A program made the translations under genes and the position numbers. A stretch of 64,000 bases of DNA from Bacteroidia bacterium (GTDB lineage Bacteria > Bacteroidota > Bacteroidia > Flavobacteriales > Flavobacteriaceae), in contig JAUIIU010000002.1 of NCBI GenBank assembly GCA_030431695.1, positions 57,309 through 121,308 of the forward strand. The letters run 5' to 3'. This document shows positions 17,176-63,337 of this stretch, in pieces. The notes beneath the pieces are model-generated. The model searched no databases, was not told where the DNA came from, and saw only the letters and a program-made list of their open reading frames with translations. Position 1 is the stretch's first letter, and each line of letters starts with the position of its first letter.

Positions 17176-17187
17176 TGATAACTGTCA
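17176..17187. promoter_or_regulatory. Fnr-like box TGATAACTGTCA (USP 17236 promoter)
   Basis: Palindrome centre 17181.5; -7 TATCTTTA begins at 17211 (29.5 bp). Confidence 0.7.
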
Positions 17188-17235
17188 ATAAATTTTAAGG
17201 TGGAATCCGCTATCTTTATAGTATAATCTTGTAAC

Positions 17236-18066
17236 ATGAAAAATATACTGTTGCCAACCGATTTTTCGGATAATTCCTATCTCGCGATGGATTACGCAAT
17301 GCGCCTATTCACGGGGCAGAGCATGAATTTCACGGTGCTGAATATTCAAAAATCTTCCGAGTATATTATGGATGACCTCATGGCAGCCAGTCCGGGCTCA
17401 TCGGTGCACGAAGCGATCTCGGCAGACAATAAGGCTGAACTGGACATGGTCGTGGAGCGATATAGGGCCGAATATTCTTCCGAAGAATACAAAATAGAAG
17501 GAGTATTCGACTTCGACGTCTTTATCGACGGGATTGCGCAAACAGTGGATTCCAGGGAGATCGAGCTGATCGTAATGGGCACCAACGGTGCCAGTGGAGC
17601 AAGGGAAGCTATTTTCGGCAGCAATACCCTGCAGGTGATACGAAATATCCAATGTCCTGTCCTCGCTATCCCAAAGGTTTATAAATACCGCCAACCTCAG
17701 CAAGTGATGTTGACTGTAGTTGATGAGCAGCTTCCTTCCAATACCGCCATAAATTCCTTGAAAAAGATAATGAAGCTTCATAACCCGGAACTTCATGTAC
17801 TTCACGTAAGTAGTGCAGAATCTTCAATTTCGGAAAACACGAATGAAAAACTAAGTGAAATTTTCGATGGTTTTGATATTACCTATCATTACCTCAGCGG
17901 GATTCCGGTACCCATGGCCATACAGTCGTTCATACAGCTTAAGCAGGTCGATTTACACTGCCTGCTGATCGAACAGAGGTCCTTCCTGGATCGATTTATA
18001 CATGGATCCGATACTTCTAGGATCAGTTATGGAACCCAGGTACCGCTACTTGTAGTTCACGATTAG
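17236..18066 (+). CDS. universal stress protein (tandem UspA domains)
   Basis: MKNILLPTDFSDNS...VMGTNGASGAREAIFGSNTLQVIRNIQCPVLAIP. Confidence 0.93.
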   Translation: MKNILLPTDFSDNSYLAMDYAMRLFTGQSMNFTVLNIQKSSEYIMDDLMAASPGSSVHEAISADNKAELDMVVERYRAEYSSEEYKIEGVFDFDVFIDGIAQTVDSREIELIVMGTNGASGAREAIFGSNTLQVIRNIQCPVLAIPKVYKYRQPQQVMLTVVDEQLPSNTAINSLKKIMKLHNPELHVLHVSSAESSISENTNEKLSEIFDGFDITYHYLSGIPVPMAIQSFIQLKQVDLHCLLIEQRSFLDRFIHGSDTSRISYGTQVPLLVVHD

Positions 18067-18067
18067 A

Positions 18068-19054
18068 TCAAAGCTGATGATCCGGAGTTTCACCTTTACT
18101 CCATGTATCAAGGTTGTAAAAGGTTGTTTCTGCGATCTTTGCAAGGGCTTCTTCGGTAGCGAATGCCTGGTGCGGTGTCAGAACTACATTTGGATTATCC
18201 ATTAATTGCTTCAGGTTGGGATCGTTTAGTTTCTCCCCCCTCCTGTCGTAGAAATATATTCCACTCTCCTTGTCGTAGACATCGGATGCGTAGCCTCCCA
18301 ATTTACCTGTCTTCAGTGCATCGATCACCGCAGTAGTTTCAACAATGGCTCCACGAGCGATATTCACTACTAACGCTTTGTCCTTCATTCCATCGATCAC
18401 AGTTGTGTCGATCAGGTGATGGGTTTCCGAAGTTAACGGTAAGCAAATGACAAGTACATCACAAATACCCTGGATTTCCTGTTTGCTAAGGTAGGTCACA
18501 CCATACTTATTGTGAAGGTCGAGATTTGGTTTCAGGTCGTTGGCAAAGATCTCGCAACCAAAACCATGAAGTAGTTTCACAACAACACTACCAATGGCAC
18601 CGGTTCCCAGTACCCCCACCTTCTTACGATGCAGATCAAAACCTACGAGATTCGTGAGAGTAAAATCCTGCTGCTTCATCTGTTCACGAGCCCTGACGAT
18701 CTTGCGATTCAATGAAAGCAACAGGGCAATTGCATGTTCGGCAATCGCATGCGGAGAATAACCTGGGGCATTGGCAACTTTTATTTTAAATTTCGCAGCC
18801 GTTTTAAGGTTGACATTATCGTAGCCCGTCGATCGCAACGCGATATATCGAATACCGAAATCATGAAGCTTTTCGAGTACGTTGGTAGAGGCGTCGTCTG
18901 CCGAAAATATAGAGATCGCATCGTATCCAAGCGACTTCATGGCGGTATTGGTAGTAAGCCTGTCGCGAGTGAAGACCGTTTCCAGCCCCATGGTATTTGC
19001 GGCTTTTAGGTAGGGTATCTCGAAATCCTTAGCGCTGTAAATAAGTATTTTCAT
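18068..19054 (-). CDS. D-2-hydroxyacid dehydrogenase (D-lactate dehydrogenase type)
   Basis: GVLGTGAIGSVVVKLLHGFGCEIFANDLKPN, LPLTSETHHLID, NIARGAIVETTAVIDALKTGKLGGYASDVYDKE. Confidence 0.9.
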   Translation of the reverse strand: MKILIYSAKDFEIPYLKAANTMGLETVFTRDRLTTNTAMKSLGYDAISIFSADDASTNVLEKLHDFGIRYIALRSTGYDNVNLKTAAKFKIKVANAPGYSPHAIAEHAIALLLSLNRKIVRAREQMKQQDFTLTNLVGFDLHRKKVGVLGTGAIGSVVVKLLHGFGCEIFANDLKPNLDLHNKYGVTYLSKQEIQGICDVLVICLPLTSETHHLIDTTVIDGMKDKALVVNIARGAIVETTAVIDALKTGKLGGYASDVYDKESGIYFYDRRGEKLNDPNLKQLMDNPNVVLTPHQAFATEEALAKIAETTFYNLDTWSKGETPDHQL

Positions 19055-19686
19055 TCGGCCACGATTAGAATTTCCTTTTTTTCAAGGTTCTTGAGAAGGA
19101 TTCTGACATATTCATTCACATTGCGTTCGCGATTGTACGGATCGACAATATCGATACTTCCTTTCCACAAAAGTTCCCTGGCCTTTCCAGGGCACAAACA
19201 GAAGACCGTTGTTTCTGTATGAAAGATCCTGTATGATTCGGTCTTGCCTTTGCGATAAAGTTCCTGGTTACTCCTGTAATAATCCTTAAAATTCTGGAAA
19301 TCGTTCACAAACCCGCGAACTGCCTGAACAGTGGTCACCTTATCTTCCGTCCCGGTGATCCTTGAGATCAGTACGGAATCAAATCCGGCGTTTAGCAGCT
19401 TGCTTTCGATCCTGTCCAGGTCTTCTTCCGTTTTATCTGAATCTGTAAATGAGCCCTCAAAGAAATCCACACTACGCACGGCAATTATCCTTTCCTTTTC
19501 CAGCCCAGAGGCCAGTTTGTCTTCAAAGGTCCTGCGCAATTCTGTGTCGGCGCTCATACCGATCACCAGCACCCTGTTGGCCTCATATACCGGTGTGTCC
19601 GGACTTTCCCACTCGTCTACCAGGCGGGTAGAAGAACAGGATAGTAAGAGCAGCGAAGTGAATACTAGCAACGATATCTTTTTCAT
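19051..19686 (-). CDS. hypothetical lipoprotein (DUF4136-like)
   Basis: MKKISLLVFTSLLLLSCSS lipobox from ATG 19686; overlaps start of downstream dehydrogenase. Confidence 0.7.
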   Translation of the reverse strand: MKKISLLVFTSLLLLSCSSTRLVDEWESPDTPVYEANRVLVIGMSADTELRRTFEDKLASGLEKERIIAVRSVDFFEGSFTDSDKTEEDLDRIESKLLNAGFDSVLISRITGTEDKVTTVQAVRGFVNDFQNFKDYYRSNQELYRKGKTESYRIFHTETTVFCLCPGKARELLWKGSIDIVDPYNRERNVNEYVRILLKNLEKKEILIVAE

Positions 19687-20268: not shown

Positions 20269-20712
20269 TTATTTAATTGCGATCTTCTTCTTTGGCAGCT
20301 CTTTAGCAACTTTCGTTTTGGTAAGTTGCAGATTCAGCACACCATTGTTGTAGATGGCTTTAACTTCTTTATCCTGATTTACTGTGTTAGGTACCTTGAT
20401 CTTCCGTTCGAATGAGTTATAGCTGAATTCTTTGCGGGTGTATCCTTCCACATCTTCTTCTACAGTTTCTTTTTCCTTTTCGGCAGAAACATGTAACACG
20501 TCATTTTCAAGTGATACTTCGATCTCTTCTTTGGTAAAACCGGGGATCGCCAATTCGATATCGAATGTCTTCTCGGTTTCCTTCACATTCATCGGTGGCA
20601 TTAACTTGCCATTGTCGAAGAAATCTTCGTCGAACATATCATTTGTGTCAAACCATGTTGGGAATCCACGATCTATAAGTGGCATTCTCCTTCTGAATTT
20701 AATAAGTGACAT
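20269..20712 (-). CDS. Hsp20/alpha-crystallin small heat shock protein
   Basis: FDIELAIPGFTKEEIEVSLENDVLHVSAEKE...GVLNLQLTK. Confidence 0.94.
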   Translation of the reverse strand: MSLIKFRRRMPLIDRGFPTWFDTNDMFDEDFFDNGKLMPPMNVKETEKTFDIELAIPGFTKEEIEVSLENDVLHVSAEKEKETVEEDVEGYTRKEFSYNSFERKIKVPNTVNQDKEVKAIYNNGVLNLQLTKTKVAKELPKKKIAIK

Positions 20713-20778
20713 AGCATTCTGTTTAAGTTACTATTACTTGAATCTATTAAATGTAGAACAATGCCATATTTCAGACAA

Positions 20779-20790
20779 TGACATCCGTCA
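20779..20790. promoter_or_regulatory. Fnr-like box TGACATCCGTCA (hsp20 promoter)
   Basis: Centre 20784.5; minus-strand -7 TACATTTA begins at 20755 (29.5 bp). Confidence 0.7.
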
Positions 20791-23052: not shown

Positions 23053-23904
23053 TCAATTGCGCAAGTCGTGTAAGGCGAGTACAGGCACTCGCGAATGGAT
23101 ACCGAGTTCCTTTACCAGCGGCCTGGAGAATACGCTTCCGAAGAAGGTGTGTTTCTTATTGATAAAGGCGATCATCCCACTGTTCCTGCTCTGTACGAAT
23201 AATTCAACCGCCTCCCCGATATCACTTTTCTCAAGGGTGTGAAAGCTATATTCGAGTCCTTCAAAATACTCCTCGAGCAAACCCCTGTAATTGAGCTGGG
23301 TCTCACTAAGTTGTTTTTCGGTTTGAACGTGCAGAACGCGAACCGGCGCATCGGTGATCCTGGCAATGTCGATAAGGTATGCCAACTCGCGTTTTTTGAA
23401 ATGCGTCTTGAAACTTGTGGGAAAGACAATTTCGGTTGGCGGAGTAAACACAGTATCAGGCGGTATGGCCATCACCGGGCAATTGCGTTCCTTTTCCATA
23501 ACCATAACGGTATTACTTCCGAAGGAAACATTCAGCGCGTCCGTATCACCCTTTGTGCCCATGATCACCAGGTCGATATCCTTCAATTCGACCACCTCCT
23601 TTATCGCATCCAGGAGGTTATCGTTTTTCGACAGGGTATAGAATTCGTGATCAGTAGACTCGTCGCGAAAGGAAATTCGCTGTAGTAGCTTTTCAAGCCC
23701 CTTGATTGACTTCTCGCGTACCGCATCCGCATATTCATTGTTTGGCTGTGCGATGACAATATTATCCATGGCATAGCCAGAAAAATTGTAAACATTCAGA
23801 ATATAAAAATCGCAGGCTTCATCCTTAAAAAGTTCAATAGCATAGGAAATAGCCTCCCATGCATTCCTTGAAAAATCGGTAGGTAACAATATCTTTCGTC
23901 GCAT
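23053..23904 (-). CDS. universal stress protein (tandem UspA)
   Basis: RRKILLPTDFSRNAWEAI...VIMGTKGDTDALNVSFGSNTVMV. Confidence 0.9.
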   Translation of the reverse strand: MRRKILLPTDFSRNAWEAISYAIELFKDEACDFYILNVYNFSGYAMDNIVIAQPNNEYADAVREKSIKGLEKLLQRISFRDESTDHEFYTLSKNDNLLDAIKEVVELKDIDLVIMGTKGDTDALNVSFGSNTVMVMEKERNCPVMAIPPDTVFTPPTEIVFPTSFKTHFKKRELAYLIDIARITDAPVRVLHVQTEKQLSETQLNYRGLLEEYFEGLEYSFHTLEKSDIGEAVELFVQSRNSGMIAFINKKHTFFGSVFSRPLVKELGIHSRVPVLALHDLRN

Positions 23905-23957
23905 GGTAAAAGGGTTTCGTAAATTTTAAATGTACGTTCCGTTCCTGGGAATCCCCA

Positions 23958-23969
23958 TGATTTTCATCA
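23958..23969. promoter_or_regulatory. Fnr-like box TGATTTTCATCA (USP 23053 promoter)
   Basis: Centre 23963.5; minus-strand -7 TACATTTA begins at 23934 (29.5 bp). Confidence 0.65.
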
Positions 23970-25694: not shown

Positions 25695-26540
25695 TTAATT
25701 TCGCGGCAAATTCTGCAGTACCAGGAATGGAATCTTTATTTCCAGTCCTATCTTTTCGACCTTGGAGGTGAACAGATAGTCCTCCAAAAATGAGTGCCGC
25801 GAGTTGATCATCACTAATAGGTCGGTGGTATAGTTCGCTACGGCGTCGTTGATGACCGCTGTAATATCCGTTCCCGGAAGCTGGATGTAGGTAGGTTTGA
25901 CCTGTTCCAGGCAGTATTCCAGAAATGCCTTATTGTCTTCCTGCCGAAATGATAGTTCATCAAATTTCGAGATATGAAGCACCTTCAGCGAGGCTGCAAA
26001 ATTCTGAGCAAGTGTACTGAGTAATTTCAGCTCCCTCCGCTGATATGGCAGCATATAGTCTGTGGCAAACAAAATGTTCTTCGGCTGTATATCCGTATAG
26101 CCTGATGGCACCGCAAGTACCGGGCATTTCACATATTTTATCACCTGCAATGTATTGCTTCCGAAGGTTAGGTTCCTGTCGTCCGACTTCCCCTTGGTTC
26201 CCATTACTATCACATCGGCGTTCTCCAATTCGGCAATTTCGTTGGCCTCATCCACAAGTGCCCCGAAGACAGCGATGGGAAAATAATTATGGCGGGGGTT
26301 TGGAGAAACCTCCTTCATCTTCTCTATAATGCCTTTCAGTTCCTCCCTTGAATGCTGAAGAACTTCCTCCTTGGCTGCATTCACTTCTTCCCTGCTCATC
26401 CCCGGAGTGCTGTAAACCTCATCTCCATAGGCATGCAGGATATAAAAATCGGTTCGATCATATTTAAACAACTCCAATGCATAGGTAATTGCATTCCAGG
26501 CATTCTCGGAGAAATCGGTGGGTATTAGAACTTTACGCAT
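25695..26540 (-). CDS. universal stress protein (tandem UspA); start revised from 26567
   Basis: MRKVLIPTDFSENAWNAI from ATG 26540; predicted TSS lies just upstream. Confidence 0.9.
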   Translation of the reverse strand: MRKVLIPTDFSENAWNAITYALELFKYDRTDFYILHAYGDEVYSTPGMSREEVNAAKEEVLQHSREELKGIIEKMKEVSPNPRHNYFPIAVFGALVDEANEIAELENADVIVMGTKGKSDDRNLTFGSNTLQVIKYVKCPVLAVPSGYTDIQPKNILFATDYMLPYQRRELKLLSTLAQNFAASLKVLHISKFDELSFRQEDNKAFLEYCLEQVKPTYIQLPGTDITAVINDAVANYTTDLLVMINSRHSFLEDYLFTSKVEKIGLEIKIPFLVLQNLPRN

Positions 26541-26595
26541 AAGGGATGGTTTTATGGATACTATCAAATTTATTAGCCAGGCCTTTCAGAAACAA

Positions 26596-26607
26596 TGATA
26601 ATTATCA
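26596..26607. promoter_or_regulatory. Fnr-like box TGATAATTATCA (USP 25695 operon promoter)
   Basis: Centre 26601.5; minus-strand -7 TAAATTTG begins at 26572 (29.5 bp). Confidence 0.7.
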
Positions 26608-26915: not shown

Positions 26916-27752
26916 TCATTCGTGCAAGACCAGGAATGGAATTTCGGTATGGTAACTGATCTTGGCCACCGTTGGCCGGAACAGCAAACGCTGGAAGAAA
27001 TTCAGGTTCTTGGCAACCATTGCTATGATCTGGATGTCCATCAGGTCGATGAATTCCTGTAGTCCCTGTTCTAGATCAGGGTTCTTTACACAATGGAAAC
27101 TGTTCGGTCTGTTATCCAGAGCATCCCTGAGAAATTCACGGTTCTTATTCTGATCATCGTTCAAGGCGTATTCGTCACTGGCAACTCTTAATACCCTAAT
27201 GGAGGAATCATGAACATCCGCCATGCTGAAAAGGGTTTCAAGAACCTTTTGCCTGTAGAAAATATTGAAGTCGGTAGGAAACACGATATTCTCAGGTCGC
27301 TCGAATGCAGCTCTTTCCGGGATGACCAGCACCGGGCATTTCACCCTGGTGATGACAGAACCTGTGTGGCTTCCAACAGTGACTTCTTTCAATCCGGAAG
27401 CTCCTTTGGTTCCCATTATGATCAGGTCGATATCAAGTTCGCGTACCGTGTTCTTGATCCCTTCCACGAAAAGAGAGTGGACAACCCGAACATCGATATT
27501 TGCTTTACACCTTGGGTATAGGATCTCGATCTTCCGTTTGATCTCTTCCAACTGATCGATTTTCGTCGTGCCGGGATCTTCCAGTATTGATACCCCATTA
27601 GAGTGAAGATCATTTTCACTGGACACACGACCGGAATAGACAATATGAAGCAGGTGAATGTTCACTGGCAGGTTATTGTAAAATGCCAGCGAATACTCAA
27701 TTGCATTCCACGCGTTATGCGAAAAATCTGTTGGAATTAAGATCCGCTTCAT
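26916..27752 (-). CDS. universal stress protein (tandem UspA); start revised from 27800
   Basis: MKRILIPTDFSHNAWNAIEYS from ATG 27752. Confidence 0.9.
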   Translation of the reverse strand: MKRILIPTDFSHNAWNAIEYSLAFYNNLPVNIHLLHIVYSGRVSSENDLHSNGVSILEDPGTTKIDQLEEIKRKIEILYPRCKANIDVRVVHSLFVEGIKNTVRELDIDLIIMGTKGASGLKEVTVGSHTGSVITRVKCPVLVIPERAAFERPENIVFPTDFNIFYRQKVLETLFSMADVHDSSIRVLRVASDEYALNDDQNKNREFLRDALDNRPNSFHCVKNPDLEQGLQEFIDLMDIQIIAMVAKNLNFFQRLLFRPTVAKISYHTEIPFLVLHE

Positions 27753-27804
27753 TCGTCTACTTACTCTTAGAGGCAAAAATAGGTGCCTTGGGAGGTTCAA
27801 AGAA

Positions 27805-27816
27805 TGATATATATCA
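27805..27816. promoter_or_regulatory. Fnr-like box TGATATATATCA (USP 26916 promoter)
   Basis: Centre 27810.5; minus-strand -7 TATTTTTG begins at 27781 (29.5 bp). Confidence 0.7.
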
Positions 27817-27827: not shown

Positions 27828-28889
27828 TTACTCGATATGCCGAAGGCCTTCAAGATCCACGATCCGGATATTGCGCCCTTCAATTTCAACAAGGCCATCC
27901 TTTTTGAAACCGGATAAGGTGCGAATCAAACTTTCGGTAGCGATCCCGGCCACACTGGCAAGGTCGTGACGGGAGATCTTTATATTGTCGTTCTGGTGTT
28001 TGTTCAGTATATCGGCGAACTGGAGAATAGTAGATGCCGTCTTTTTCCGAACCGAACTATATGCCATCTGGAGCAATTGCTCCTTTATCCCGGAAAGATT
28101 CTCCGTGAGTACATTCATCAATTCCAGGGAAACGGCGTTGCTTTTTGTGAGTATATCCTTTAGCACATTTTTCGAGACAACGGCAAGTTCAACTTCCTCA
28201 ACGGCCGTGGCGGATTCCTGGTAAGGGACCGCCTCTTCAAACGAAGTGAAACCCAGGAAGTCATCGGGCTTGTGGAGTTCCGTGATCAACTCCTTTCCAT
28301 TCTCATCCATCTTATGACTTTTTACTATGCCTTTCAGGATCAAATAGATGTTGTTGGAATGTCCGCCTTCGTTATAAATGGTTTCTCCTTTGCTGTAATT
28401 TGCTATTTCCCCGTTATCATCGAAGAAGTTCTTTAATTCATTCAAATTTCGAATGCTGTCCTCACTATCTTCCTTGGCACTGCTCTCAACACTCATCTCC
28501 ATTGCCTGTCTCAGTAATTCCGACTTCGCCATCCGGCTTTCAATGGCGCTTATCAGTTCACTTTCCTCAAAGGGCTTGGTGATGTAGTCATCGGCTCCAA
28601 GGTCCATGCCCTTTCGAATTTCCTTGTGTTCTGTCTTTGCTGAAAGAAATATGAACGGGATATGCTGAGTTTCGGAATCCTTGGCAAGAGCATTGAGCAC
28701 CCCGTAACCATCTACCTCCGGCATCATTATATCGCACACAATTACGTGGGGGTGATTGGTTTTTGCCTTTTCTATACCTATTTTCCCATTCGGGGCCGTG
28801 ATTACCGAATACCCGGAAAGTTCAAGAATTTCCGCCGTGTTCTCGCGCAAGGCCGAATCGTCTTCGATGAGAAGAATGCTTTTGATCAT
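27828..28889 (-). CDS. hybrid response regulator: CheY-like receiver, cNMP-binding domain, Crp/Fnr HTH
   Basis: IEDDSALRENTAEIL..VIVCDIMMPEVDGYG..ADDYITKPFEESEL receiver; GETIYNEGGHSNNIYLILKG cNMP domain; ISRHDLASVAGIATESLIRTLSGFKKDG HTH. Confidence 0.93.
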   Translation of the reverse strand: MIKSILLIEDDSALRENTAEILELSGYSVITAPNGKIGIEKAKTNHPHVIVCDIMMPEVDGYGVLNALAKDSETQHIPFIFLSAKTEHKEIRKGMDLGADDYITKPFEESELISAIESRMAKSELLRQAMEMSVESSAKEDSEDSIRNLNELKNFFDDNGEIANYSKGETIYNEGGHSNNIYLILKGIVKSHKMDENGKELITELHKPDDFLGFTSFEEAVPYQESATAVEEVELAVVSKNVLKDILTKSNAVSLELMNVLTENLSGIKEQLLQMAYSSVRKKTASTILQFADILNKHQNDNIKISRHDLASVAGIATESLIRTLSGFKKDGLVEIEGRNIRIVDLEGLRHIE

Positions 28890-30115: not shown

Positions 30116-30151
30116 AGCTCAAAAATAGGGAAATTAAAAATTCCATCGAAC

Positions 30152-30163
30152 TGATATATATCA
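30152..30163. promoter_or_regulatory. Fnr-like box TGATATATATCA between kinase and 30218 ORF
   Basis: Centre 30157.5; plus -7 TAATTTTA at 30187 (29.5 bp); minus TATTTTTG at 30127 (30.5 bp). Confidence 0.65.
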
Positions 30164-30217
30164 TAAAATCTGTGCCGACGTAAAATTAATTTTAACCTAA
30201 CAAAACAGAAAAATCAG

Positions 30218-30622
30218 ATGACCTATATAGAAAAACCCCAAATTGCTTTCTACCAGAAAGTTGGCGAATTATTCTACGCCGTGGCTGCGGCAGACAAAGT
30301 CGTTCGCGAATCGGAATACAATGCACTCAAGAAACTGGTTCGTGAAGTTTGGTCGAAACATGACTCCAGTGTGGATGAATTCGATTCTCAGGCCATATAT
30401 CAAATGGAGGTGGTCTTTGACTGGTTCGACTATGAACAAATGGATTCCGACGCTTGCTACGAGAGTTTCGAAAATTATATGAAAGAACATCCTTCGCTCT
30501 TTACCGAGGAACGCAAAAAACTCATTTATCTTACCGCAAACGAGATAGCCGATGCCTTCTCTGGCAAGAATAAATCGGAACTCATCATCCTTGGAAAACT
30601 TCAATTACTTCTAACTGCTTAG
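30218..30622 (+). CDS. TerB-like helical protein, unknown function
   Basis: YQKVGELFYAVAAADKVVRESEYNALKKLVREVW resembles TerB/tellurite-resistance-like N-region. Confidence 0.65.
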   Translation: MTYIEKPQIAFYQKVGELFYAVAAADKVVRESEYNALKKLVREVWSKHDSSVDEFDSQAIYQMEVVFDWFDYEQMDSDACYESFENYMKEHPSLFTEERKKLIYLTANEIADAFSGKNKSELIILGKLQLLLTA

Positions 30623-30670: not shown

Positions 30671-30682
30671 TGAGGAATATCA
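30671..30682. promoter_or_regulatory. degenerate Fnr-like box TGAGGAATATCA (30733 promoter)
   Basis: Centre 30676.5; plus -7 TATTTTTA at 30706 (29.5 bp). Confidence 0.4.
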
Positions 30683-30732
30683 TATTTATTGCCGAACCTT
30701 GCTCTTATTTTTACTGAAACAAGTCCAATATC

Positions 30733-31611
30733 ATGAAACGAGCATTATTAGTCACTACTGTACTTCTTCTGCTTCTGGCCTGTAAGGAAGATGCAAAAAA
30801 GGAGGTGATAGATGAAACACTGATCGAGGAAACAGATTCCCAGGTCGGGGATACTATTGTCGCCAACGAGAATGATCTCGATCTGCAACGACAGATAGAT
30901 GTAGAGCTTCGAAAGAAGCAACTGGTGGAAAGGCCGGACGAACGGGAACAACTGGAAGAACTGATCATCGCCAAACAATTTCTCAGGGAGGAAGATCTGT
31001 ATACCATAGATTTCAAATACCCATTCCTCAATGAAAACCTGAAACCATCTTATGTCAATTTCAACGAATACATCGCCGAGACCTACCTCGACATTCCCGG
31101 TGTGGAAGCACAGATACTCGAAGACAAGGAATTGCTTTGTGATACGCTTCGAATCAATAAATATCGCGAAAAAAGATATGTGGATTACAAGGTGTACAAC
31201 GTGAATGAAAAACTGGTGAGCGTCTTGTTCTACAAGGAAAACTTCTATTCCGGAACCCTACACCCCTCCTTCACCTTCGACTGTCTGAATTTTGACCTGG
31301 GCAGGTCGGTTTTCATGAATTACGAGGATTTCTTTATCGAAGGTTCCGAAGAAGAATTGCGGAAGATCCTGAACGAGATCCTGATCGCCAGGATAGAATC
31401 CGGTGAAGTGTATTACGATTGCTGGGGTATTTCCGAAGAAGACTTCTTCGAATACAAGGATAACTTCGTAGTGGACGACAGGAAGGTGGAATACTATTTC
31501 GACGACTGCGTAATATGTCCTACCTACACAGGGAATTTTTCGGTAGAGATACCGCTGGAGGAATTATTACCTGTACTGAGACGGTATAACCTGAACCCAC
31601 TGCAACTTTAA
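30733..31611 (+). CDS. hypothetical lipoprotein
   Basis: MKRALLVTTVLLLLLACKED lipobox; coding-like throughout. Confidence 0.7.
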   Translation: MKRALLVTTVLLLLLACKEDAKKEVIDETLIEETDSQVGDTIVANENDLDLQRQIDVELRKKQLVERPDEREQLEELIIAKQFLREEDLYTIDFKYPFLNENLKPSYVNFNEYIAETYLDIPGVEAQILEDKELLCDTLRINKYREKRYVDYKVYNVNEKLVSVLFYKENFYSGTLHPSFTFDCLNFDLGRSVFMNYEDFFIEGSEEELRKILNEILIARIESGEVYYDCWGISEEDFFEYKDNFVVDDRKVEYYFDDCVICPTYTGNFSVEIPLEELLPVLRRYNLNPLQL

Positions 31612-34202: not shown

Positions 34203-34505
34203 TTAGTGATTGAAGGTTGTTTCTTTTCGTTTCTTAAGCTGGCGTCCGAGATCATTCAGCGTCTCTTTAACCGCCACCTCAAAATTAGCTTCTTTGGATG
34301 TTGCAAATATCTTTGGTCCGGGTAAACTAAGTTCGATCTCACAGATCTTCTTCCCCATCGCATCCTTTTCCTTCTCCAATTTGAAATACACGTTTGCGGC
34401 AATAAGCCAGCTGTACTTTTTAGCTAATTTCTGTAGTCTTTTTTCAGTAAATTCAGTCAAAGATTCACTGGTTGGCATCTTTACGTATTGAATTGAAATT
34501 GTCAT
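34203..34505 (-). CDS. hpf: ribosome hibernation promoting factor / RaiA family
   Basis: MTISIQYVKMPTSESLTEFTEKRLQKLAKKY...EVAVKETLNDLGRQLKKRKE. Confidence 0.9.
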   Translation of the reverse strand: MTISIQYVKMPTSESLTEFTEKRLQKLAKKYSWLIAANVYFKLEKEKDAMGKKICEIELSLPGPKIFATSKEANFEVAVKETLNDLGRQLKKRKETTFNH

Positions 34506-34559
34506 ACCTGTTGTTGTTTAATTATATTCAAATGTACTTTTCTGATCATTTTTAAAATA

Positions 34560-34571
34560 TGACACACGTCA
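34560..34571. promoter_or_regulatory. Fnr-like box TGACACACGTCA (hpf-USP promoter)
   Basis: Centre 34565.5; minus-strand -7 TACATTTG begins at 34536 (29.5 bp). Confidence 0.72.
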
Positions 34572-34665: not shown

Positions 34666-34677
34666 TGATATTTATCA
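34666..34677. promoter_or_regulatory. Fnr-like box TGATATTTATCA (efflux operon promoter)
   Basis: Centre 34671.5; plus -7-like GAATTTTG at 34701 (29.5 bp, one mismatch). Confidence 0.55.
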
Positions 34678-34724
34678 TAGCCACAGTAAATATTATTACT
34701 GAATTTTGAAGCAAATCGCTGATA

Positions 34725-35807
34725 ATGAGAATCTACCCGATATTTAGCTTTATCGTAATCCTTTTGTTTGGCTGTAACTCAAGAAATGAAAGAATCCAGC
34801 CGGTGGAAATGGATCTTACCGAATCTGTTTACGCTTCTGCAACCGTGCAGCCGGACAGTCTTTACAAAGTATATGCTGCCGTAAACGGGATCCTGGATGA
34901 AATTTATGTCGAAGAAGGCGATACGGTTTCCAGGGGACAACCACTGATGAAGATCGTTAACACCAATCCTTCCCTTACAACCGAAAACGCCAAACTCGCC
35001 TACGAACTGGCCAGGAGTAACTTTTCAGGGAGTACCGGTTTGCTGAAATCATTGCTGGAAGAGATCGAATCGGCCAAGCTGAAACTGTCCAATGATTCCA
35101 TTTCCTATTTCAGGCAGAAGAACCTCTGGGAACAAAAGATCGGGTCTAAGGCGGAATATGATAACCGAAAGTTGGCCTTTGATATTTCCAGGAGAACCCT
35201 CACCCGGCTAGAAAACGACTATGCCAGAACCCGGAATGAACTTCAGACACAGGTGGAGCAGGCACAAAATCAATACAAGGCCTCCCTGGTAACCTTCGGG
35301 GATTTCACCATAAAAAGTAAACTGGACGGAACAGTATACGCCTTGAACAAGAATCCTGGGGAACTTGTGAGTTCAGTTGAACCCATTGCATCGGTTGGCT
35401 GCACAAACAACTTCCTGATCGAACTCCTGGTGGATGAAGTGGACGTTGTGAAGATAAGAGAAGACCAGCAGGTTATCGTTACCCTCGATGCTTATGAAGA
35501 CCGGGCCTTTGAAGCCCTTGTATCCAAGATCCTCCCGGAAAAAGACTTCAGGAATCAAACCTTCACGATCGAAGCCTCATTCGTCAACCCGCCGGATAGG
35601 TTGTACCCTGGGCTTTCAGGTGAGGCTAATGTGGTAGTGGCTATTAAGGAAAAGGTCCTGGCCATCCCAACGAACTACCTGGTCAATGGAACCAGTGTTG
35701 AAACAGAAAATGGTCTAGTGGAAATTGTTACGGGTCTCAGGAACCTTGACTATGTTGAAGTTGTTTCGGGGCTTTCCAAAGAAGATTATATCCTAAAGCC
35801 GGAATAA
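34725..35807 (+). CDS. HlyD-family periplasmic adaptor lipoprotein
   Basis: Biotinyl-lipoyl-like GILDEIYVEEGDTVSRGQPLMKI; lipobox FGC. Confidence 0.9.
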   Translation: MRIYPIFSFIVILLFGCNSRNERIQPVEMDLTESVYASATVQPDSLYKVYAAVNGILDEIYVEEGDTVSRGQPLMKIVNTNPSLTTENAKLAYELARSNFSGSTGLLKSLLEEIESAKLKLSNDSISYFRQKNLWEQKIGSKAEYDNRKLAFDISRRTLTRLENDYARTRNELQTQVEQAQNQYKASLVTFGDFTIKSKLDGTVYALNKNPGELVSSVEPIASVGCTNNFLIELLVDEVDVVKIREDQQVIVTLDAYEDRAFEALVSKILPEKDFRNQTFTIEASFVNPPDRLYPGLSGEANVVVAIKEKVLAIPTNYLVNGTSVETENGLVEIVTGLRNLDYVEVVSGLSKEDYILKPE

Positions 35808-37069: not shown

Positions 37070-37070
37070 A

Positions 37071-44271: not shown

Positions 44272-44283
44272 TGATATATATCA
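44272..44283. promoter_or_regulatory. Fnr-like box TGATATATATCA (SQR operon promoter)
   Basis: Centre 44277.5; minus-strand -7 TAATTTTA begins at 44248 (29.5 bp). Confidence 0.7.
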
Positions 44284-44308: not shown

Positions 44309-44320
44309 TGATTATTGTCA
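44309..44320. promoter_or_regulatory. Fnr-like box TGATTATTGTCA (FadL-like gene promoter)
   Basis: Centre 44314.5; plus -7 TAGCTTTG begins at 44344 (29.5 bp). Confidence 0.7.
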
Positions 44321-44437
44321 TATTTCCTAATGCCTGCCGTCAATAGCTTTGTCTTCCTAATTCTGAATTTAACACAGCTATTTATGGAACGCAGCCAGGT
44401 ATAGTTGTAGTCCCGAATAGCTTCTAAACAATAGATC

Positions 44438-51355: not shown

Positions 51356-51367
51356 TGACTAAGGTCA
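51356..51367. promoter_or_regulatory. Fnr-like box TGACTAAGGTCA (hydrogenase structural operon promoter)
   Basis: Centre 51361.5; plus -7 TACATTTG begins at 51391 (29.5 bp). Confidence 0.75.
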
Positions 51368-51424
51368 TTCCAAAGGATATAAATCTGTTATACATTTGAT
51401 TCTAAACCTAATAGAAAACGATCA

Positions 51425-53245
51425 ATGATAACAGCGAACAATCTTGACCGCAGCAAGTTAATGGATGTTATCTGGGACATTCAGCGCAAAAAAAATCACA
51501 TCGGACATGACGACATCACCAAAATTGCTCAGCAATTCGATATGTCCAGGATGGAACTCGAAGGGATCGTAACCTTTTACCACTTTTACCACAGGATTCC
51601 CTCTGGTAAATTCACGATTTACTTGAACGACTCTATTGTTTCTGAACATTCCGGGCGGCCGGAAGTTCTTGAGGCTTTTGAAAAATCACTTGGTATCAAA
51701 CTAGGCAGGATAAGTGCCGATGGACTTTTCGGCCTGTATAAAACACCATGTATCGGTTTGAGTGACCAGGAGCCTTCCTGTTTGATAAACTTCAAACCCT
51801 TCACCAACCTTACGCCGGAAAAGGTATATGATATTGTTGAACAACTTCGGAATGGTGCAAAACCCTCGAAGATCTGCGACCATCCCGAAACCAATGTCCG
51901 TTATACACCCGAACCCGAGCGAACGATCTTCTTCAAACCCTACGACCGGTTCACCTCTCTTACCAAACTGAATGAGTACGAACCATTCGAGATCATAGAG
52001 ATCATCAAGAATTCGAAACTTACCGGCCGCGGTGGTGCCTTTTTCCCAACCGGCCTTAAATGGCAGTTCTGCCGTCAGAATGAAGGTCCGATAAAATACC
52101 TCATCTGTAATGCGGATGAAGGAGAACCAGGGACCTTTAAGGATCGTGTTCTTATGCAACAACACCCGGAATTACTGATCGAGGGAATGATCCTCGGTGC
52201 ATACGCCATAGGTGCTGCACAGGGAGCTATTTACCTCAGAGCCGAGTATATGTACTTGAGGAAGAGCCTGGAAACCCTGTTGCAAACCTACCGCGAACAA
52301 GGATACCTGGGTAGAAATATCAGGGCAAAGAGACCATTCGATTTTGATATTTACATCCACATGGGCGCAGGTGCATATGTTTGTGGGGAAGAGACCGCCC
52401 TTATTCATTCCATGGAAGGAAAAAGAGGGGAGCCGAGTACCAAGGAATATTTCCCCGTAGAGCGCGGATTCAACAATAGGCCTACCGTAGTCAACAATGT
52501 GGAGACGCTATCGGCAGTCCCCAGGATCCTTATGATGGGACTCGATAAATACCTGGAACTGGGTACCGAAAAAACTCCGGGAACCAAGTTACTGAGTGTG
52601 TCGGGAGACTGTGAACTACCGGGTCTTTATGAGATCGAATGGGGAATGAAATTGAGAGATTTCCTCGAATTGATCGGGGCAAAAGACACGAAATTCATAT
52701 TGTTCAACGGTTATGCCGGCGAATGTTTGTCGGAAGTCGATTTCGACAGGGAGATCTCCGGCGAGAACCTGCTGGCCGATGATGTTTTGTTCCATTTCAA
52801 GAACCCGATCGAATACGCCCAGAAGATGAGTGGTATCGGACTTAGGGCGGGTGGATCCGTAATGATCTTCAACAAAAGCCGGGATGTTCTCAATGTTATG
52901 AAGAATGTCGCCGATTTCTTCGTGGATGAATCCTGCGGAATCTGCGTCCCTTGTCGCACGGGTAACTTCCTTCTCAATAAAAAGATAGACCGGATAAAGC
53001 TCGGGCACGGTGAAGAAAGGGACCTGGAGGAGATCAAGGAATGGAGCAAGATCATAAAAACCACCAGTCGCTGTGGCCTGGGCAAGATGTCCTCAACGGC
53101 CCTGAACGACGCAATATTCAAGTTCCCAGATGTTTTCGGAACAGTACTTTCTGAAAACACAGATTTCAACAAGGCCTTCAACCTGAAGGATGCCACTGTT
53201 GACTACGACCGCATAATTAACGAAATGACCTCCGATTATGAGTAA
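51425..53245 (+). CDS. hoxF: NAD-linked hydrogenase diaphorase subunit HoxF (NuoE-like plus NuoF-like domains)
   Basis: N-terminal NuoE-like; GRGGAFFPTGLKWQF, CNADEGEPGTFKDR, GAGAYVCGEETALIHSMEGKRGEP, ESCGICVPCRTGN. Confidence 0.93.
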   Translation: MITANNLDRSKLMDVIWDIQRKKNHIGHDDITKIAQQFDMSRMELEGIVTFYHFYHRIPSGKFTIYLNDSIVSEHSGRPEVLEAFEKSLGIKLGRISADGLFGLYKTPCIGLSDQEPSCLINFKPFTNLTPEKVYDIVEQLRNGAKPSKICDHPETNVRYTPEPERTIFFKPYDRFTSLTKLNEYEPFEIIEIIKNSKLTGRGGAFFPTGLKWQFCRQNEGPIKYLICNADEGEPGTFKDRVLMQQHPELLIEGMILGAYAIGAAQGAIYLRAEYMYLRKSLETLLQTYREQGYLGRNIRAKRPFDFDIYIHMGAGAYVCGEETALIHSMEGKRGEPSTKEYFPVERGFNNRPTVVNNVETLSAVPRILMMGLDKYLELGTEKTPGTKLLSVSGDCELPGLYEIEWGMKLRDFLELIGAKDTKFILFNGYAGECLSEVDFDREISGENLLADDVLFHFKNPIEYAQKMSGIGLRAGGSVMIFNKSRDVLNVMKNVADFFVDESCGICVPCRTGNFLLNKKIDRIKLGHGEERDLEEIKEWSKIIKTTSRCGLGKMSSTALNDAIFKFPDVFGTVLSENTDFNKAFNLKDATVDYDRIINEMTSDYE

Positions 53246-54503
53246 CCTGGTAAACCTAAAGATAGATGGCAAACCAATTCAGGCGGAAGCAGGTACCAAC
53301 CTCGTGGACGTTGCCAAACAAAATGGGACTTATATCCCAACACTTTGTTATTTCAAAGAACTGAATCCCCTGGCTACCTGTAGGATCTGTACAGTGAAGG
53401 TAAACGGCAGGGAGACCACCGGCTGTACGGTGAAGGTTGCCGAAGGAATGGATGTTGAGGTAAGCACACCCGAACTACTCGATAACAGGAAAGCCATCAT
53501 CGAGATGCTTTATGCCGAAGGAAACCACTTCTGCCCTTCCTGTGAAAAGAGTGGGAACTGTGATATGCAAAACCTTGGATACGATATGGGGATCACCGTT
53601 ACCCGGTATCCACACGTTTTCAGCGATAAGATAGTAGACTTCAATCCGAAAAGAATGATCATGGAGTCGAACCGCTGTATCCTATGTAAACGTTGTGTGG
53701 AGGAAGTAAAAACTTCGGATGGCAAAGACGTATTCTCCTTTGTTCAGCGAGGTGTAAAGACACGGGTGCACATCGATTATGAGCAGGAGGCAAAACTCAC
53801 CGAAGCCGAGGCTATTCACGCGATGAATATCTGCCCTGTGGGAGCGATCCTCGTTAAAGGAATGATCCACGAGCAGCCTTTCGGCGAACGGAAATATGAC
53901 CTTTTAGGTAAGGACATCAAGCCACGAGTAAAAGAAGAGAGCCTTAGAGAAACGGAAGACGGTAAGTTTATCGTTGCCACTACATCCCTGGCCGGATGTT
54001 TCGGTTGTCATATGTCACTTCTCGATATTGACACCGATCTCCTGGATGTACTTGAGATCGTGGAGTTCAACAAATCCCCGTTGACCGATATCAAGAATTT
54101 CAGCAAACAATGTCACATCGGACTTGTAGAAGGTGGTTGTGCCAATTCGGAGAACGTGGAAGTTCTTCGGGAATTCCGTAAGAAGTGTGATATCCTGGTA
54201 GGTTTTGGTGAATGTGCCATCATGGGTGGAATCCCCGCAATGCGGAATTTCGTTCCGTTAAAGGAATGCCTGGATGAAGCCTACCTCAATGGTATGACCA
54301 CGGAAGTGGGGGCAGATATCATCCCAGGACATGAGGACATTCCGAAGATACTGAACAATGTGTACCCATGTAACGAGGTCGTCAAGATCGACTATTACAT
54401 TCCGGGTTGTCCGCCAAATGCTCAGCACATCTGGAAAGTGGTGAAAAGTATTCTTTTAGGAGAAGAATTCTCCATCGCCCACGATGAATTCAAATACGAC
54501 TAA
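53238..54503 (+). CDS. fused HoxU (2Fe-2S diaphorase) and HoxY (hydrogenase small subunit)
   Basis: HoxU part PTLCYFKELNPLATCRICTVKV, HFCPSCEKSGNC, CILCKRC; HoxY part LAGCFGCHMSLLDIDTDLL...EGGCANSENVEVLREFRKKCDILVGFGECAIMGG...IPGCPPNAQHIW in one frame. Confidence 0.93.
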   Translation: MSNLVNLKIDGKPIQAEAGTNLVDVAKQNGTYIPTLCYFKELNPLATCRICTVKVNGRETTGCTVKVAEGMDVEVSTPELLDNRKAIIEMLYAEGNHFCPSCEKSGNCDMQNLGYDMGITVTRYPHVFSDKIVDFNPKRMIMESNRCILCKRCVEEVKTSDGKDVFSFVQRGVKTRVHIDYEQEAKLTEAEAIHAMNICPVGAILVKGMIHEQPFGERKYDLLGKDIKPRVKEESLRETEDGKFIVATTSLAGCFGCHMSLLDIDTDLLDVLEIVEFNKSPLTDIKNFSKQCHIGLVEGGCANSENVEVLREFRKKCDILVGFGECAIMGGIPAMRNFVPLKECLDEAYLNGMTTEVGADIIPGHEDIPKILNNVYPCNEVVKIDYYIPGCPPNAQHIWKVVKSILLGEEFSIAHDEFKYD

Positions 54504-54523
54504 CGCCTTGAAAATTTACTGAT

Positions 54524-55975
54524 ATGTCACAAAAATTAGTAATAGATCCCGTAACCAGGGTAGAAGGACACGGCAAAGTAACGGTCCACCTGGACGATCA
54601 TAATAACGTAAAGGACGCTTTCTTCCACATCGTGGAGTTCAGGGGTTTCGAACGCTTTATACAGGGCCATCCATACTGGGAGGCTCCGGTTTTAGTACAA
54701 CGTCTGTGCGGAATCTGCCCTGTAAGCCACCACCTTGCTGCTGCCAAGGCCATCGACCAGATCGTCGGACTGGATCCTGAAGACCTGTCGTTGCCTGCAC
54801 AAAAGATCCGAAAACTGTTGCACTACGGACAGGTTTTCCAATCGCACGCCCTGCATTTCTTCTACCTCGCATCGCCAGACCTGCTGTTTGGCTATGATGC
54901 CGACCCGGTAAAACGAAATGTGGTTGGAGTTGCAATGGAGTATCCTTCACTGGCCAAGAAAGGGATACTGATGCGAAAATTCGGACAGGAGATCATTAAA
55001 ATGGTGGCCGGGAAACGTATCCATGGTATATCCACTACTCCCGGAGGTGTTCATAAAAAGATCACGGTCAAGGAACGAAACAGGTTCCTCGATGGTAAAG
55101 AAATGCCTTCTATTGATACCATGATCGAATGGTCTGTTGAGATCCTGGATTTCATGAAGGAATACCATCAGAAGAACAGTGCGTTCCTGGATACTTTTGC
55201 GAATTATCCTTCAGGCCACCTGGGACTCGTAAAAAAAGATAACGGATTCCTCGAATTATACGACGGACACCTGAGAGCCCTTGATTGCGACGGCAATGTT
55301 ACCCTGCCGGATATCCCCGATGTCGATTACGCCAAACACTTTTACGAAGGCGTAGAGAAATGGTCCTACCTGAAATTCCCATACCTGAGACATATAGGCA
55401 GGGAACACGGCTGGAACCGGGTTGGACCACTGGCACGTATCAATGTGTGTGACGGGATCGAGACACCACTTGCTGAAAAGGAACGACTGGATTTCGAACT
55501 GGCAGGAGGAAATATCAACAATATGACCATGCATACGCACTGGGCGCGATTGATCGAGATCCTGTATTGTGCTGAAATGATGAAGAGGTTGCTGGAGGAC
55601 GATGATATCATCTCCAATGACCTGCTCCGTAAAGGTGAGCGCAGAAATGAAGGTATAGGCATCATTGAAGCGCCTCGCGGAACGCTGATCCACCACTACG
55701 AAGTAGATGATAAGGACCGCATCACGCGTTGTAACCTCATCGTTTCGACAACCCACAACAATGAAGCAATGAACCGGGCGGTTCGATGGGTCGCTAAGCA
55801 CGAATTAAGCGGCAAGCCACAGATCACCGAGGCAATGATGAACCAGATCGAGGTTGCGATCAGGGCGTACGACCCTTGTTTGAGCTGTGCCACTCATGCT
55901 CTCGGAAAGATGCCATTGGACATTTCCATTGTTGACGCCTACGGAAATATACTCGATGAAAAGCTCAGAAACTAA
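54524..55975 (+). CDS. hoxH: [NiFe] hydrogenase large subunit HoxH
   Basis: L1 motif RLCGICPVSHH, L2 motif DPCLSCATHALGKMPLDI with C-terminal tail. Confidence 0.96.
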   Translation: MSQKLVIDPVTRVEGHGKVTVHLDDHNNVKDAFFHIVEFRGFERFIQGHPYWEAPVLVQRLCGICPVSHHLAAAKAIDQIVGLDPEDLSLPAQKIRKLLHYGQVFQSHALHFFYLASPDLLFGYDADPVKRNVVGVAMEYPSLAKKGILMRKFGQEIIKMVAGKRIHGISTTPGGVHKKITVKERNRFLDGKEMPSIDTMIEWSVEILDFMKEYHQKNSAFLDTFANYPSGHLGLVKKDNGFLELYDGHLRALDCDGNVTLPDIPDVDYAKHFYEGVEKWSYLKFPYLRHIGREHGWNRVGPLARINVCDGIETPLAEKERLDFELAGGNINNMTMHTHWARLIEILYCAEMMKRLLEDDDIISNDLLRKGERRNEGIGIIEAPRGTLIHHYEVDDKDRITRCNLIVSTTHNNEAMNRAVRWVAKHELSGKPQITEAMMNQIEVAIRAYDPCLSCATHALGKMPLDISIVDAYGNILDEKLRN

Positions 55976-61260: not shown

Positions 61261-62625
61261 TTAGAAACTTATAACAGATTCAATGACCACTCCATTGAAT
61301 TTACCTTCGTTGAACTGACTTCCAACAGGATAGTCATTATAGGTCTGGCTAACATACTCTAGCTTGGCAAGCACGTTCTTTGTGAAGAAGACACCGGCAC
61401 CAACGTTGATACGATTGATGGTAACATCCTCTGTCATTCCTCTGAAAGGACCAGTTGCCGTATTGTATCGGCCTCCGATATAGAAGTTTTCGTTATTTCC
61501 GAATCTATACAGGGCTTCTGCCATTATGTGAGTCCAGTTTCTGTCTGTATTATTTCCGCTGGCGTCGAATTCTGAATCGGCTCTACCAGTTGTGGTTTCA
61601 AATAAACCGAAGAACTCAAAGCCCTGGTATTTCACGAACGGGTTGATCATGATTGCGGTAACCTCGTTTGAGAATCCCGGGTCAATTCTACCTGATGTGA
61701 AATATCCTCGTCCCCCTGATGTTGCATTGGCATCTTCCATCACGAAGTAGTAGCGAGATCCAGCACGGTCGGCTCCATAAAGATAGGTTCTTGCACTATG
61801 TGCAGTGTTGTATACAGAACCTGTGAGTCGCAATCTCAAGTCTTCATTCAATTGTTTATCCCATCCCAGTTTACCAATCAAACTTGGAGAAGTAGTTTCC
61901 GGATTGTCGACTGCCTGGTTTAATTTTCCGTTGAACAAACCTACCATGGCGATCCAACCGTTATTTCGGTAGTAGATCTCACCACCCACCTCCTGAGAGA
62001 ATCCATCAAGAATGGAGTTTCCTACGAATGGGTTGTAAATGGTTTGAGAGTTATCTGAACGTCTGAAGTGCTGGTCACCGTAGTTCACTTCCATGTGACC
62101 GATCTTAACTGTAACATACTTCATAACGTCAGCCAGAGTTCCTTCACCTATCCAGTTCAGGTTGTCGATCTGCAGATATCCACCTTTTACATATGGTTCC
62201 GGGTGGTGTCTTGAAGACAGGTATGTACGTAAGTGCATACGCAATCCATCGTGCAAAGTAACATCCAGATCGAGGTTGGCAGTTGCAAGGTTGAAGTTTG
62301 AACCAATTTCCTTAAGCGGCAGGTTCGCGTTTCCTCCCATACCATCATCTATGAACCAAGGGCTACCCGGCATGATAGTGTTTTCCGCTGGTCGGCCATT
62401 TTCATGGTCCAACGCCTGGAATTGAAGTGTGGAAGATCCACCAATTCGAACCTTAACTCCTTCGAATGCCTTGGTTACTGAAGTATCCTTAGGCGCTTCA
62501 AAGACATTGATGCCATCTTTAGAAGGTTCTCTGAAGTTGTTCAGACTTCGTTTGTTCTGCGCAGTTACAGCAACCATGCTGAACAAAATACTAATTAAAA
62601 AAAGTTGTTTTACTAATTGTTTCAT
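61261..62625 (-). CDS. outer membrane porin-like beta-barrel protein
   Basis: Signal peptide, aromatic-rich beta-strands, C-terminal VVIESVISF. Confidence 0.8.
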   Translation of the reverse strand: MKQLVKQLFLISILFSMVAVTAQNKRSLNNFREPSKDGINVFEAPKDTSVTKAFEGVKVRIGGSSTLQFQALDHENGRPAENTIMPGSPWFIDDGMGGNANLPLKEIGSNFNLATANLDLDVTLHDGLRMHLRTYLSSRHHPEPYVKGGYLQIDNLNWIGEGTLADVMKYVTVKIGHMEVNYGDQHFRRSDNSQTIYNPFVGNSILDGFSQEVGGEIYYRNNGWIAMVGLFNGKLNQAVDNPETTSPSLIGKLGWDKQLNEDLRLRLTGSVYNTAHSARTYLYGADRAGSRYYFVMEDANATSGGRGYFTSGRIDPGFSNEVTAIMINPFVKYQGFEFFGLFETTTGRADSEFDASGNNTDRNWTHIMAEALYRFGNNENFYIGGRYNTATGPFRGMTEDVTINRINVGAGVFFTKNVLAKLEYVSQTYNDYPVGSQFNEGKFNGVVIESVISF

Positions 62626-63236
62626 GACACAACAAAGTTTAGGTTAAAGATTATCGTTATTTCATTTCCTGTTTTAAGCGTACCGAGCAAAGCTGTAGGT
62701 GGTTCTACGTTGTGATCGGTCATTTTCATTGGTAAACTACCCTTGATATTCATGACACCACTCTTCATTTCTATGGTGACATCAATATTCACGGATTTTG
62801 CCACACCTGCTACATCAAGAGTCCCGTTAAGTTTCGCTTTGTACTTTCCGGCACCTTCCTTGGAGATAGAGGACAGCTTTTTGAATTTGTATAATACATT
62901 GGGGTGATCTTCGTGCTTCAATGCAGCATAGCACTTCTTGTCCATCACTTTTTTACCACTCTTCAAGGTAGTCACCCCTACCCTGATTACGATGTCTGAT
63001 ATCCCGATTGTTCCATCAGTTTCATTATATTCCAGTTTACCTTTGCATGAATGGGAAACCATTTCCCAATCGTGTAGTGAGGAAGTTCCCTGAATGGTAA
63101 AACTCGATGAGATTGGGTCACAGGAGAGCGTGGTATTACTCATCCCGGGTTCGAGACCCGGTTCCGACTGTGCGGGTAAATTGAAACCTATAAAGAATAG
63201 TGCAAGGACAGTTAACAGGTCTTTTAAAGTTCTCAT
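62622..63236 (-). CDS. YceI family protein
   Basis: SSFTIQGTSSLHDWEMVSHSCKG...KLNGTLDVAGVAKSVNIDVTI. Confidence 0.88.
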   Translation of the reverse strand: MRTLKDLLTVLALFFIGFNLPAQSEPGLEPGMSNTTLSCDPISSSFTIQGTSSLHDWEMVSHSCKGKLEYNETDGTIGISDIVIRVGVTTLKSGKKVMDKKCYAALKHEDHPNVLYKFKKLSSISKEGAGKYKAKLNGTLDVAGVAKSVNIDVTIEMKSGVMNIKGSLPMKMTDHNVEPPTALLGTLKTGNEITIIFNLNFVVS

Positions 63237-63293
63237 TGATCTTTTGTTTGTAACATTTGATACAAAACTATGCGCTGACGCACATACTATTTA

Positions 63294-63305
63294 TGATTTA
63301 TGTCA
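63294..63305. promoter_or_regulatory. Fnr-like box TGATTTATGTCA (YceI-porin operon promoter)
   Basis: Centre 63299.5; minus-strand -7 TAGTTTTG begins at 63270 (29.5 bp). Confidence 0.7.
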
Positions 63306-63325
63306 GTTAAACAGTTCAATATTTA

Positions 63326-63337
63326 TGATTTATATCA
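63326..63337. promoter_or_regulatory. second Fnr-like box TGATTTATATCA between yceI and cytochrome c genes
   Basis: Perfect half-sites; 32 bp from the first box; no -7 at 29.5 bp in either direction. Confidence 0.5.

Follow-up and report, generated by a model that had tools for sequence, protein, structure and literature searches.

Introduction

In the rhizobial FixL–FixJ–FixK cascade, a heme-PAS kinase, a receiver partner and a Crp/Fnr activator act at class II sites of the cbb3 oxidase and other genes, and E. coli FNR and Pseudomonas ANR use a TGA...TCA core at position −41.5 to control low-oxygen targets that include HemN, cbb3 oxidase and universal stress proteins (USPs). In both FNR and CRP the TGA is read by a glutamate of the recognition helix. 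Within the Bacteroidota, the Crp/Fnr family includes Bacteroides Cur/MalR (BT4338) and HcpR, which the literature ties to carbon or nitrosative signals. The Flavobacteriaceae are major degraders of organic matter in the sea, and their control by oxygen seems to have received little study. Here we analyze a 64,000-nt window (the whole stretch of DNA under study, positions 57,309 to 121,308 of contig JAUIIU010000002.1) from a Flavobacteriaceae metagenome-assembled genome (MAG; 2.98 Mb, 126 contigs, 98% complete). The window contains a recurrent box at one fixed distance from the Bacteroidota −7 promoter element, together with a two-component system whose response regulator, P0001 (27828..28889, minus strand), joins a receiver (REC) domain to a Crp-type output and whose sensor kinase, P0002 (28886..30115, minus strand), carries a FixL/DosP-like PAS domain. 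The sequences point to a real, conserved and functional-looking regulon, which we take to be a class II-like oxygen regulon of the Crp/Fnr type in which the response regulator is a fusion protein.

The predicted circuit shares with the rhizobial cascade its type of kinase, a receiver and a Crp/Fnr activator at class II-like sites, and among the Crp-type models of NCBIfam the Crp half of P0001 scores best with FixK (75.8 bits, below the cut-off). In contrast to rhizobia, where FixJ couples its receiver to a LuxR-type helix-turn-helix (HTH) and FixK is a separate protein, a single REC-Crp protein is found here, with a cNMP_binding plus HTH_Crp_2 output that excludes a FixJ-type response regulator. 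The outer operator bases also differ from the FixK/FNR consensus, and the PAS is closer in sequence to DosP than to FixL. Comparison with E. coli FNR gives a similarly mixed picture. The core, the predicted position and the targets are alike, but P0001 has a single cysteine, C52, and none of the [4Fe-4S] cysteines, its sites are not flanked as in TTGAT/ATCAA, and its recognition helix is E-S-L-I-R rather than E-T-I-S-R: of the FNR pattern E-x-x-S-R, the E and R are present while the S is replaced by I in 81 of 81 orthologues. A canonical FNR regulon was therefore rejected on cysteines and outer bases, and the "Fnr-like" of the initial annotation holds for the TGA...TCA core of the box but not for its outer bases or for the FNR cysteines. 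Nor does the system match cAMP-CRP, as the core is TGAY preceded by A or C, not a TGTGA-type sequence, and P0001 reaches 70 bits against a CRP cut-off of 266. Standalone FNR-like proteins of the Flavobacteriaceae (L133, L138) have a TES-x-IR helix and go with the same box; unlike P0001, they lack a receiver and contain a CxxC and two more conserved cysteines, which suggest that they hold an Fe-S cluster of their own.

In the open-access literature searched, we found no description of a Crp/Fnr response regulator, of FixL in Bacteroidetes or of an FNR regulon in Flavobacteria. One phylogeny places Flavobacteriales Crp/Fnr homologues near MalR, with the receiver domain nowhere in its text (PMC8510549), and in two further papers cNMP appears solely as a sensing domain (PMC9953108, PMC4618731). 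The regulon had been called undescribed, which stands as far as this literature reaches and is not proof of absence.

Results and Discussion

The pattern consists of the strict box TGAY-N4-RTCA, a gap and the −7 element TAnnTTTR; a gap of 23 nt (N23) corresponds to 29.5 bp from the box center. All 11 strict boxes of the initial annotation are present in the window, each with a TAnnTTTR element at exactly N23 in the orientation of the gene that follows, and its two near-miss boxes are likewise as claimed, the box at 34666 having GAATTTTG at N23 and that at 30671 reading TGAGGAATATCA with TATTTTTA at N23. By itself the strict box is only modestly enriched, with 16 occurrences in the window compared with 6.2 in whole-window dinucleotide shuffles (~2.6-fold; 1 of 100 shuffles reaches 16). 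The combination of box, N23 and −7 element, however, occurs 11 times in the window and 0 times in 200 local Markov shuffles. When box-element pairs in the MAG were tallied for gaps of 8 to 38, 30 of the 53 pairs fell at N23 and 7 at N22, with 16 in the other 29 gaps together; the Poisson probability of the N23 count is ~4e-41, and a reversed-pattern control at N23 gave 0. The enrichment extends to the family: a set of 150 Flavobacteriaceae genomes, with one for each genus, contains the strict pattern 2160 times and the reversed control 80 times. The proposed regulon with a fixed, class II-like spacing is thus strongly supported by conserved boxes and spacing enrichment, and a switch at one exact distance precedes about 37 low-oxygen and stress genes in the source genome.

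Close relatives of the regulator gene occur across the Flavobacteriaceae, and we collected 80 orthologous loci (1.28 Mb) by regulator homology, many of them from Aquimarina, so that the loci are not independent. Their gap histogram again peaks sharply, with 361 pairs at N23, 24 at N24, 19 at N25 and ~2 per gap elsewhere, and the genes behind the N23 boxes are orthologues of the window targets. Loss of the boxes in sister species would have spoken against the regulon, but they are conserved in sister genera: an N23 box precedes the USP at 26916 in 77 of 80 loci and the gene at 30218 in 65 of 80, followed by the USP at 25695 (35 loci), HPF (27), the DUF3298-like gene at 30733 (20), the USP at 23053 (12) and Hsp20 (8). 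The degenerate box at 30671 is probably real, since its gene has a strict N23 box in those 20 orthologous loci.

The operator is also polar. On the side away from the promoter, 355 sites are flanked by C (66%) or A (24%), and on the promoter side by T (97%; 210 of 211 in one-directional sites), compared with a T flank in 48% of boxes that have no −7 element on either side. The same T trend is seen, more weakly, in the sites of the MAG itself (28/37), where the outer T of an FNR site at −1 is found in 4 of 37 and the outer A at +13 in 2 of 37, A/C and T taking their places. This bias defines the motif (C/A)TGAY-N4-RTCAT, pointed at its promoter, and a palindromic operator was discarded. No −33 consensus is visible in the N23 promoters.

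Naming the product of 27828–28889 as the regulator proved the best choice, because this is the only Crp-type protein of its genome with a TGA-reading recognition helix. Pfam assigns P0001 a receiver (residues 5–117), a cyclic nucleotide (cNMP)-type effector domain (164–249) and a Crp-type HTH (285–351). The receiver has the phospho-acceptor aspartate, acidic pair and conserved T/S and K of a response regulator, with E9, D10 and D53 present in 81 of 81 orthologues and S83 and K105 invariant in a 24-sequence alignment. The recognition helix E319-S-L-I-R323 is likewise found in 81 of 81, and the longer ATESLIR segment is invariant apart from one T. Only one other protein in the MAG, L032, exceeds the Pfam cut-off for a Crp-type HTH; it was rejected as the regulator because its helix, TSRVVISR, lacks the TGA-reading glutamate. 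L033 was also set aside: it is MarR-like/GNAT rather than a Crp protein, and its HTH match is weak and partial. Other Flavobacteriaceae encode a separate FNR-like protein of about 225–280 amino acids with a CxxC, further cysteines and a TES-x-IR helix that matches the recognition helix of the REC-Crp proteins; no orthologue of it was found in the 98% complete MAG. L032 itself (1057–1689) is a standalone Crp-type protein whose gene adjoins one that resembles, by eye, a TauE/SafE-type exporter, and it is possibly a separate, sulfur-related regulator.

The kinase gene precedes the regulator gene with a 4-base overlap and encodes a PAS (about residues 11–125), HisKA and HATPase domains (Pfam and PDB matches). 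The best solved-structure matches of the PAS are the heme PAS domains of DosP (1e-14) and FixL (1e-10), and a fold search with its predicted model (predicted local distance difference test, pLDDT, 71; moderate) ranks the FixL and DosP heme domains first. H66, which aligns with the proximal heme-ligand position of DosP and FixL, is present in 80 of 80 orthologues although the neighboring residues vary, and R86, at the position of the regulatory arginine (FixL R220, DosP R97), in 78 of 80. The kinase therefore looks like a heme-based oxygen sensor, with heme and oxygen as its probable ligand and signal.

Other Bacteroidota REC-Crp proteins (L126, L128, L129 and L158) have an FNR-type ET-x-SR helix and adjoin kinases whose PAS is even more FixL-like, with the motif MPSPDREKHD...IIGHGRDV. 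This class of sensor is thus repeatedly paired with a Crp output, and these proteins may read a true TTGAT-N4-ATCAA box.

Regulator and box are tied together most strongly by the way in which site number follows the two proteins; kinship is uncorrected here and some genomes are incomplete. Across the 150 genera, the median number of sites per genus is 15 with REC-Crp only (n=31), 10 with the FNR-like protein only (n=60), 25 with both (n=31) and 1 with neither (n=28), and these differences have P < 2e-8 (Mann–Whitney, shared ancestry not corrected for). At most 2 sites are found in 24 of the 28 genera with neither protein, and the 31 genera with the REC-Crp protein and no FNR-like match keep 6–37 sites each. 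Outside the family, a distant Bacteroidota genome (G271, family f46) has 28 N23 sites and 0 controls; its best regulator match is L136, a cysteine-rich FNR-like protein of 235 amino acids.

The operon of the two-component system departs from this uniform register. It shares one operator, TGATATATATCA (30152..30163), with the divergent gene 30218..30622 (plus strand), a small conserved target. Toward that gene, the −7 element TAATTTTA (30187..30194, plus strand) lies at N23 and the flank is T. Toward the kinase, the second −7 element TATTTTTG (30120..30127, minus strand), which the initial annotation had missed, lies at N24 and ends 4 nt before the ATG (30115), so that 30116–30127 and the start codon together read TATTTTTG-AGCT-ATG. 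Across the loci, the kinase side of the shared box is at N24, N25 or N26 in 43 of 43, compared with N23 in 361 of 365 other sites, and its flank is G in 17 of 20 distinct boxes; the idea that the kinase operon is an ordinary autoactivated class II target was dropped on this count. In 61 of 79 loci, and across genera, the kinase start codon follows its −7 element by 3–5 nt (exactly 4 in 50), compared with mostly 17–30 nt at N23 targets. A leaderless kinase mRNA is therefore predicted. A transcript that starts at the A of the kinase ATG would place the −7 element's first T at −12 and N23 boxes at −41.5; assuming a start 12 nt past that T, the spacing suggests an operator center at about −41.5 generally. 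Our best guess, by analogy with fixK2, which is described as auto-repressed (PMC9104804), is that the off-register, reversed box would confer weak or negative autoregulation on the kinase operon. The 30218–30622 product, earlier called TerB-like, has no Pfam or NCBIfam match, and its gene is a very constant, divergently placed partner of the system.

Boxes apparently shared by divergent promoters recur in the family. Boxes with −7 elements at N22–N25 on both sides occur in 61 of 150 genera (a control match in three genomes). Where both gaps are N23, 23 of the 34 boxes read carry A...T flanks, which turn a T toward either promoter. An example in the MAG, L029 (G000:C68:6810-6883), has one box with a −7 element at N23 in each direction, between the divergent genes for ferredoxin and 2-oxoacid:ferredoxin oxidoreductase.

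Collectively, we place at roughly 70% the probability that the boxes are operators of the REC-Crp protein, acting as a global activator that the heme-PAS kinase phosphorylates at low oxygen in a FixL–FixJ–FixK-like manner. On this model, a fall in oxygen would lead the FixL/DosP-like kinase to phosphorylate the response regulator, whose dimer would bind (C/A)TGAY-N4-RTCAT centered at −41.5 and activate, by class II contact, promoters with the Bacteroidota −7 element; receiver and Crp/Fnr protein would be fused in one polypeptide, and in many other Flavobacteriaceae the cysteine-rich FNR-like protein would use the same operators. The fuller proposal of a family-wide oxygen regulon with a FixJ–FixK fusion, a polar operator interchangeable with an Fe-S FNR-like protein and a gain-limiting, off-register, reversed and leaderless own operon is tentative and has somewhat less than an even chance of being right in every part.

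Several observations weigh against the oxygen-sensing REC-Crp model. Several of the more distant kinases do not retain R86, the model of the PAS is of moderate quality and weakest around the histidine-bearing helix, and PAS domains of this type may carry the histidine without proven heme. The predicted REC-Crp model has low inter-domain confidence (predicted template modeling score 0.41). The covariation of sites and regulators ignores phylogeny, and 4 of the 28 "neither" genomes have 5–29 sites; three of these are 73–88% complete, and one, G427, has 10 sites and 3 control matches. Heme PAS domains can also bind nitric oxide or carbon monoxide, and this, with the arginine losses and the presence of SQR, efflux and many USP genes among the targets, gives some room to a signal other than oxygen (nitric oxide, carbon monoxide, redox, sulfide or a metabolite) acting through the same regulator and operators, with the low-oxygen targets reflecting correlated stress. 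We consider this unlikely, as the nearest solved PAS relatives are dedicated oxygen sensors and the cbb3 oxidase, HemN, hydrogenase and ferredoxin enzymes make an oxygen-limitation list.

It is quite improbable that another Crp/Fnr protein reads the boxes while REC-Crp has different sites. In other genera the same box does go with FNR-like proteins whose recognition helix is identical in type, and at 98% completeness a second regulator in the missing 2% is still conceivable, but L032 lacks the critical glutamate, the genera with REC-Crp and no FNR-like match retain their sites, and in the 80 loci the boxes are concentrated near the REC-Crp gene. Repression, in which the box blocks RNA polymerase at −41.5 until relieved by low oxygen, would suit the overlap of the box with the expected −33 position, where no consensus is visible, and the off-register kinase-operon site, which is placed as for a repressor; it appears very improbable, given that rigid single-base spacing and a polar promoter-side T are typical of activator–polymerase contact and that a missing −33 element fits activator dependence. 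The 2.6-fold enrichment of the box alone is all that favors chance or a trivial effect of AT-rich promoters, to which the spacing spike, the absence of shuffle matches and the reversed controls leave a negligible probability; we regard it as ruled out. One clean pattern points to a regulon in about 120 of the 150 sampled genera, with two alternative regulators and one sensor. Genera with REC-Crp only (31), FNR-like only (60) and both (31) form a natural experiment on how one operator set changes hands between two sensing modes. The off-register, reversed, leaderless self-promoter and the divergent pairs on one operator are unusual cases for class II rules, in bacteria whose promoter consensus is specific to their phylum.

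Operators and Target Genes

The window targets comprise four USP promoters, Hsp20, HPF, a type III sulfide:quinone reductase (SQR), a FadL-type porin, an efflux operon, a NiFe hydrogenase operon and YceI. USP genes (Pfam Usp) follow the operators at 17176..17187 (plus strand; −7 element TATCTTTA at 17211–17218; gene 17236–18066), 23958..23969 (minus; TACATTTA at 23927–23934; 23053–23904), 26596..26607 (minus; TAAATTTG at 26565–26572; 25695–26567) and 27805..27816 (minus; TATTTTTG at 27774–27781; 26916–27800). The true start of the third is likely a few codons further in, and the 278-amino-acid form is likely the actual product of the fourth. Hsp20 (20269–20712; HSP20) follows the operator at 20779..20790 (minus; TACATTTA at 20748–20755), and HPF (34203–34505; S30AE, yfiA family) that at 34560..34571 (minus; TACATTTG at 34529–34536). 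The degenerate operator TGAGGAATATCA (30671..30682, plus), with its −7 element TATTTTTA at 30706–30713, precedes 30733–31611, whose DUF3298-like product is under the Pfam cut-off, and the operator at 34666..34677 (plus), with the nonconsensus −7 element GAATTTTG at 34701–34708, precedes the efflux operon 34725–37751 (HlyD, FtsX/MacB and ABC).

SQR (42945–44192) lies behind the operator at 44272..44283 (minus; TAATTTTA at 44241–44248), and the FadL/TodX porin (44438–45763) behind that at 44309..44320 (plus; TAGCTTTG at 44344–44351). The SQR is above the NCBIfam cut-off (NF049943) for "type III sulfide quinone reductase, selenoprotein subtype". The hydrogenase operon (51425–55975) follows the operator at 51356..51367 (plus; TACATTTG at 51391–51398), and YceI (62622–63236) that at 63294..63305 (minus; TAGTTTTG at 63263–63270). 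A second box at 63326..63337, missed earlier, lies 32 bp from 63294 and upstream of cytochrome c 63396–63881; it has no −7 element at N23, and orthologues of this cytochrome gene have N23 boxes in 2 loci. Three more boxes that had escaped notice (1571, 54082 and 56537) have no −7 element at the regulon spacing and look like chance occurrences.

Outside the window, sites precede genes for a CcoN-type cbb3 oxidase, HemN, and ferredoxin with 2-oxoacid:ferredoxin oxidoreductase (one shared box), as well as formate–tetrahydrofolate ligase, AsnA, glutamate dehydrogenase, a beta-eliminating lyase, a pyridoxal phosphate enzyme of Cys/Met metabolism (methionine-gamma-lyase-like), a Band 7 protein, MlaE, an HMA protein, a TonB-like protein and cytochrome c. 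L005 is presumably pyruvate phosphate dikinase (PPDK), a name given by reading the sequence only. The target set is a low-oxygen and dormancy list. Genes starting MTLYAKINADFSENYIGYSALAIIASTCLGS (L036, L039, L041, L044 and others) encode an unannotated small membrane protein and stand repeatedly behind N23 boxes; in Aquimarina and others, genes of this type are found near the regulator.

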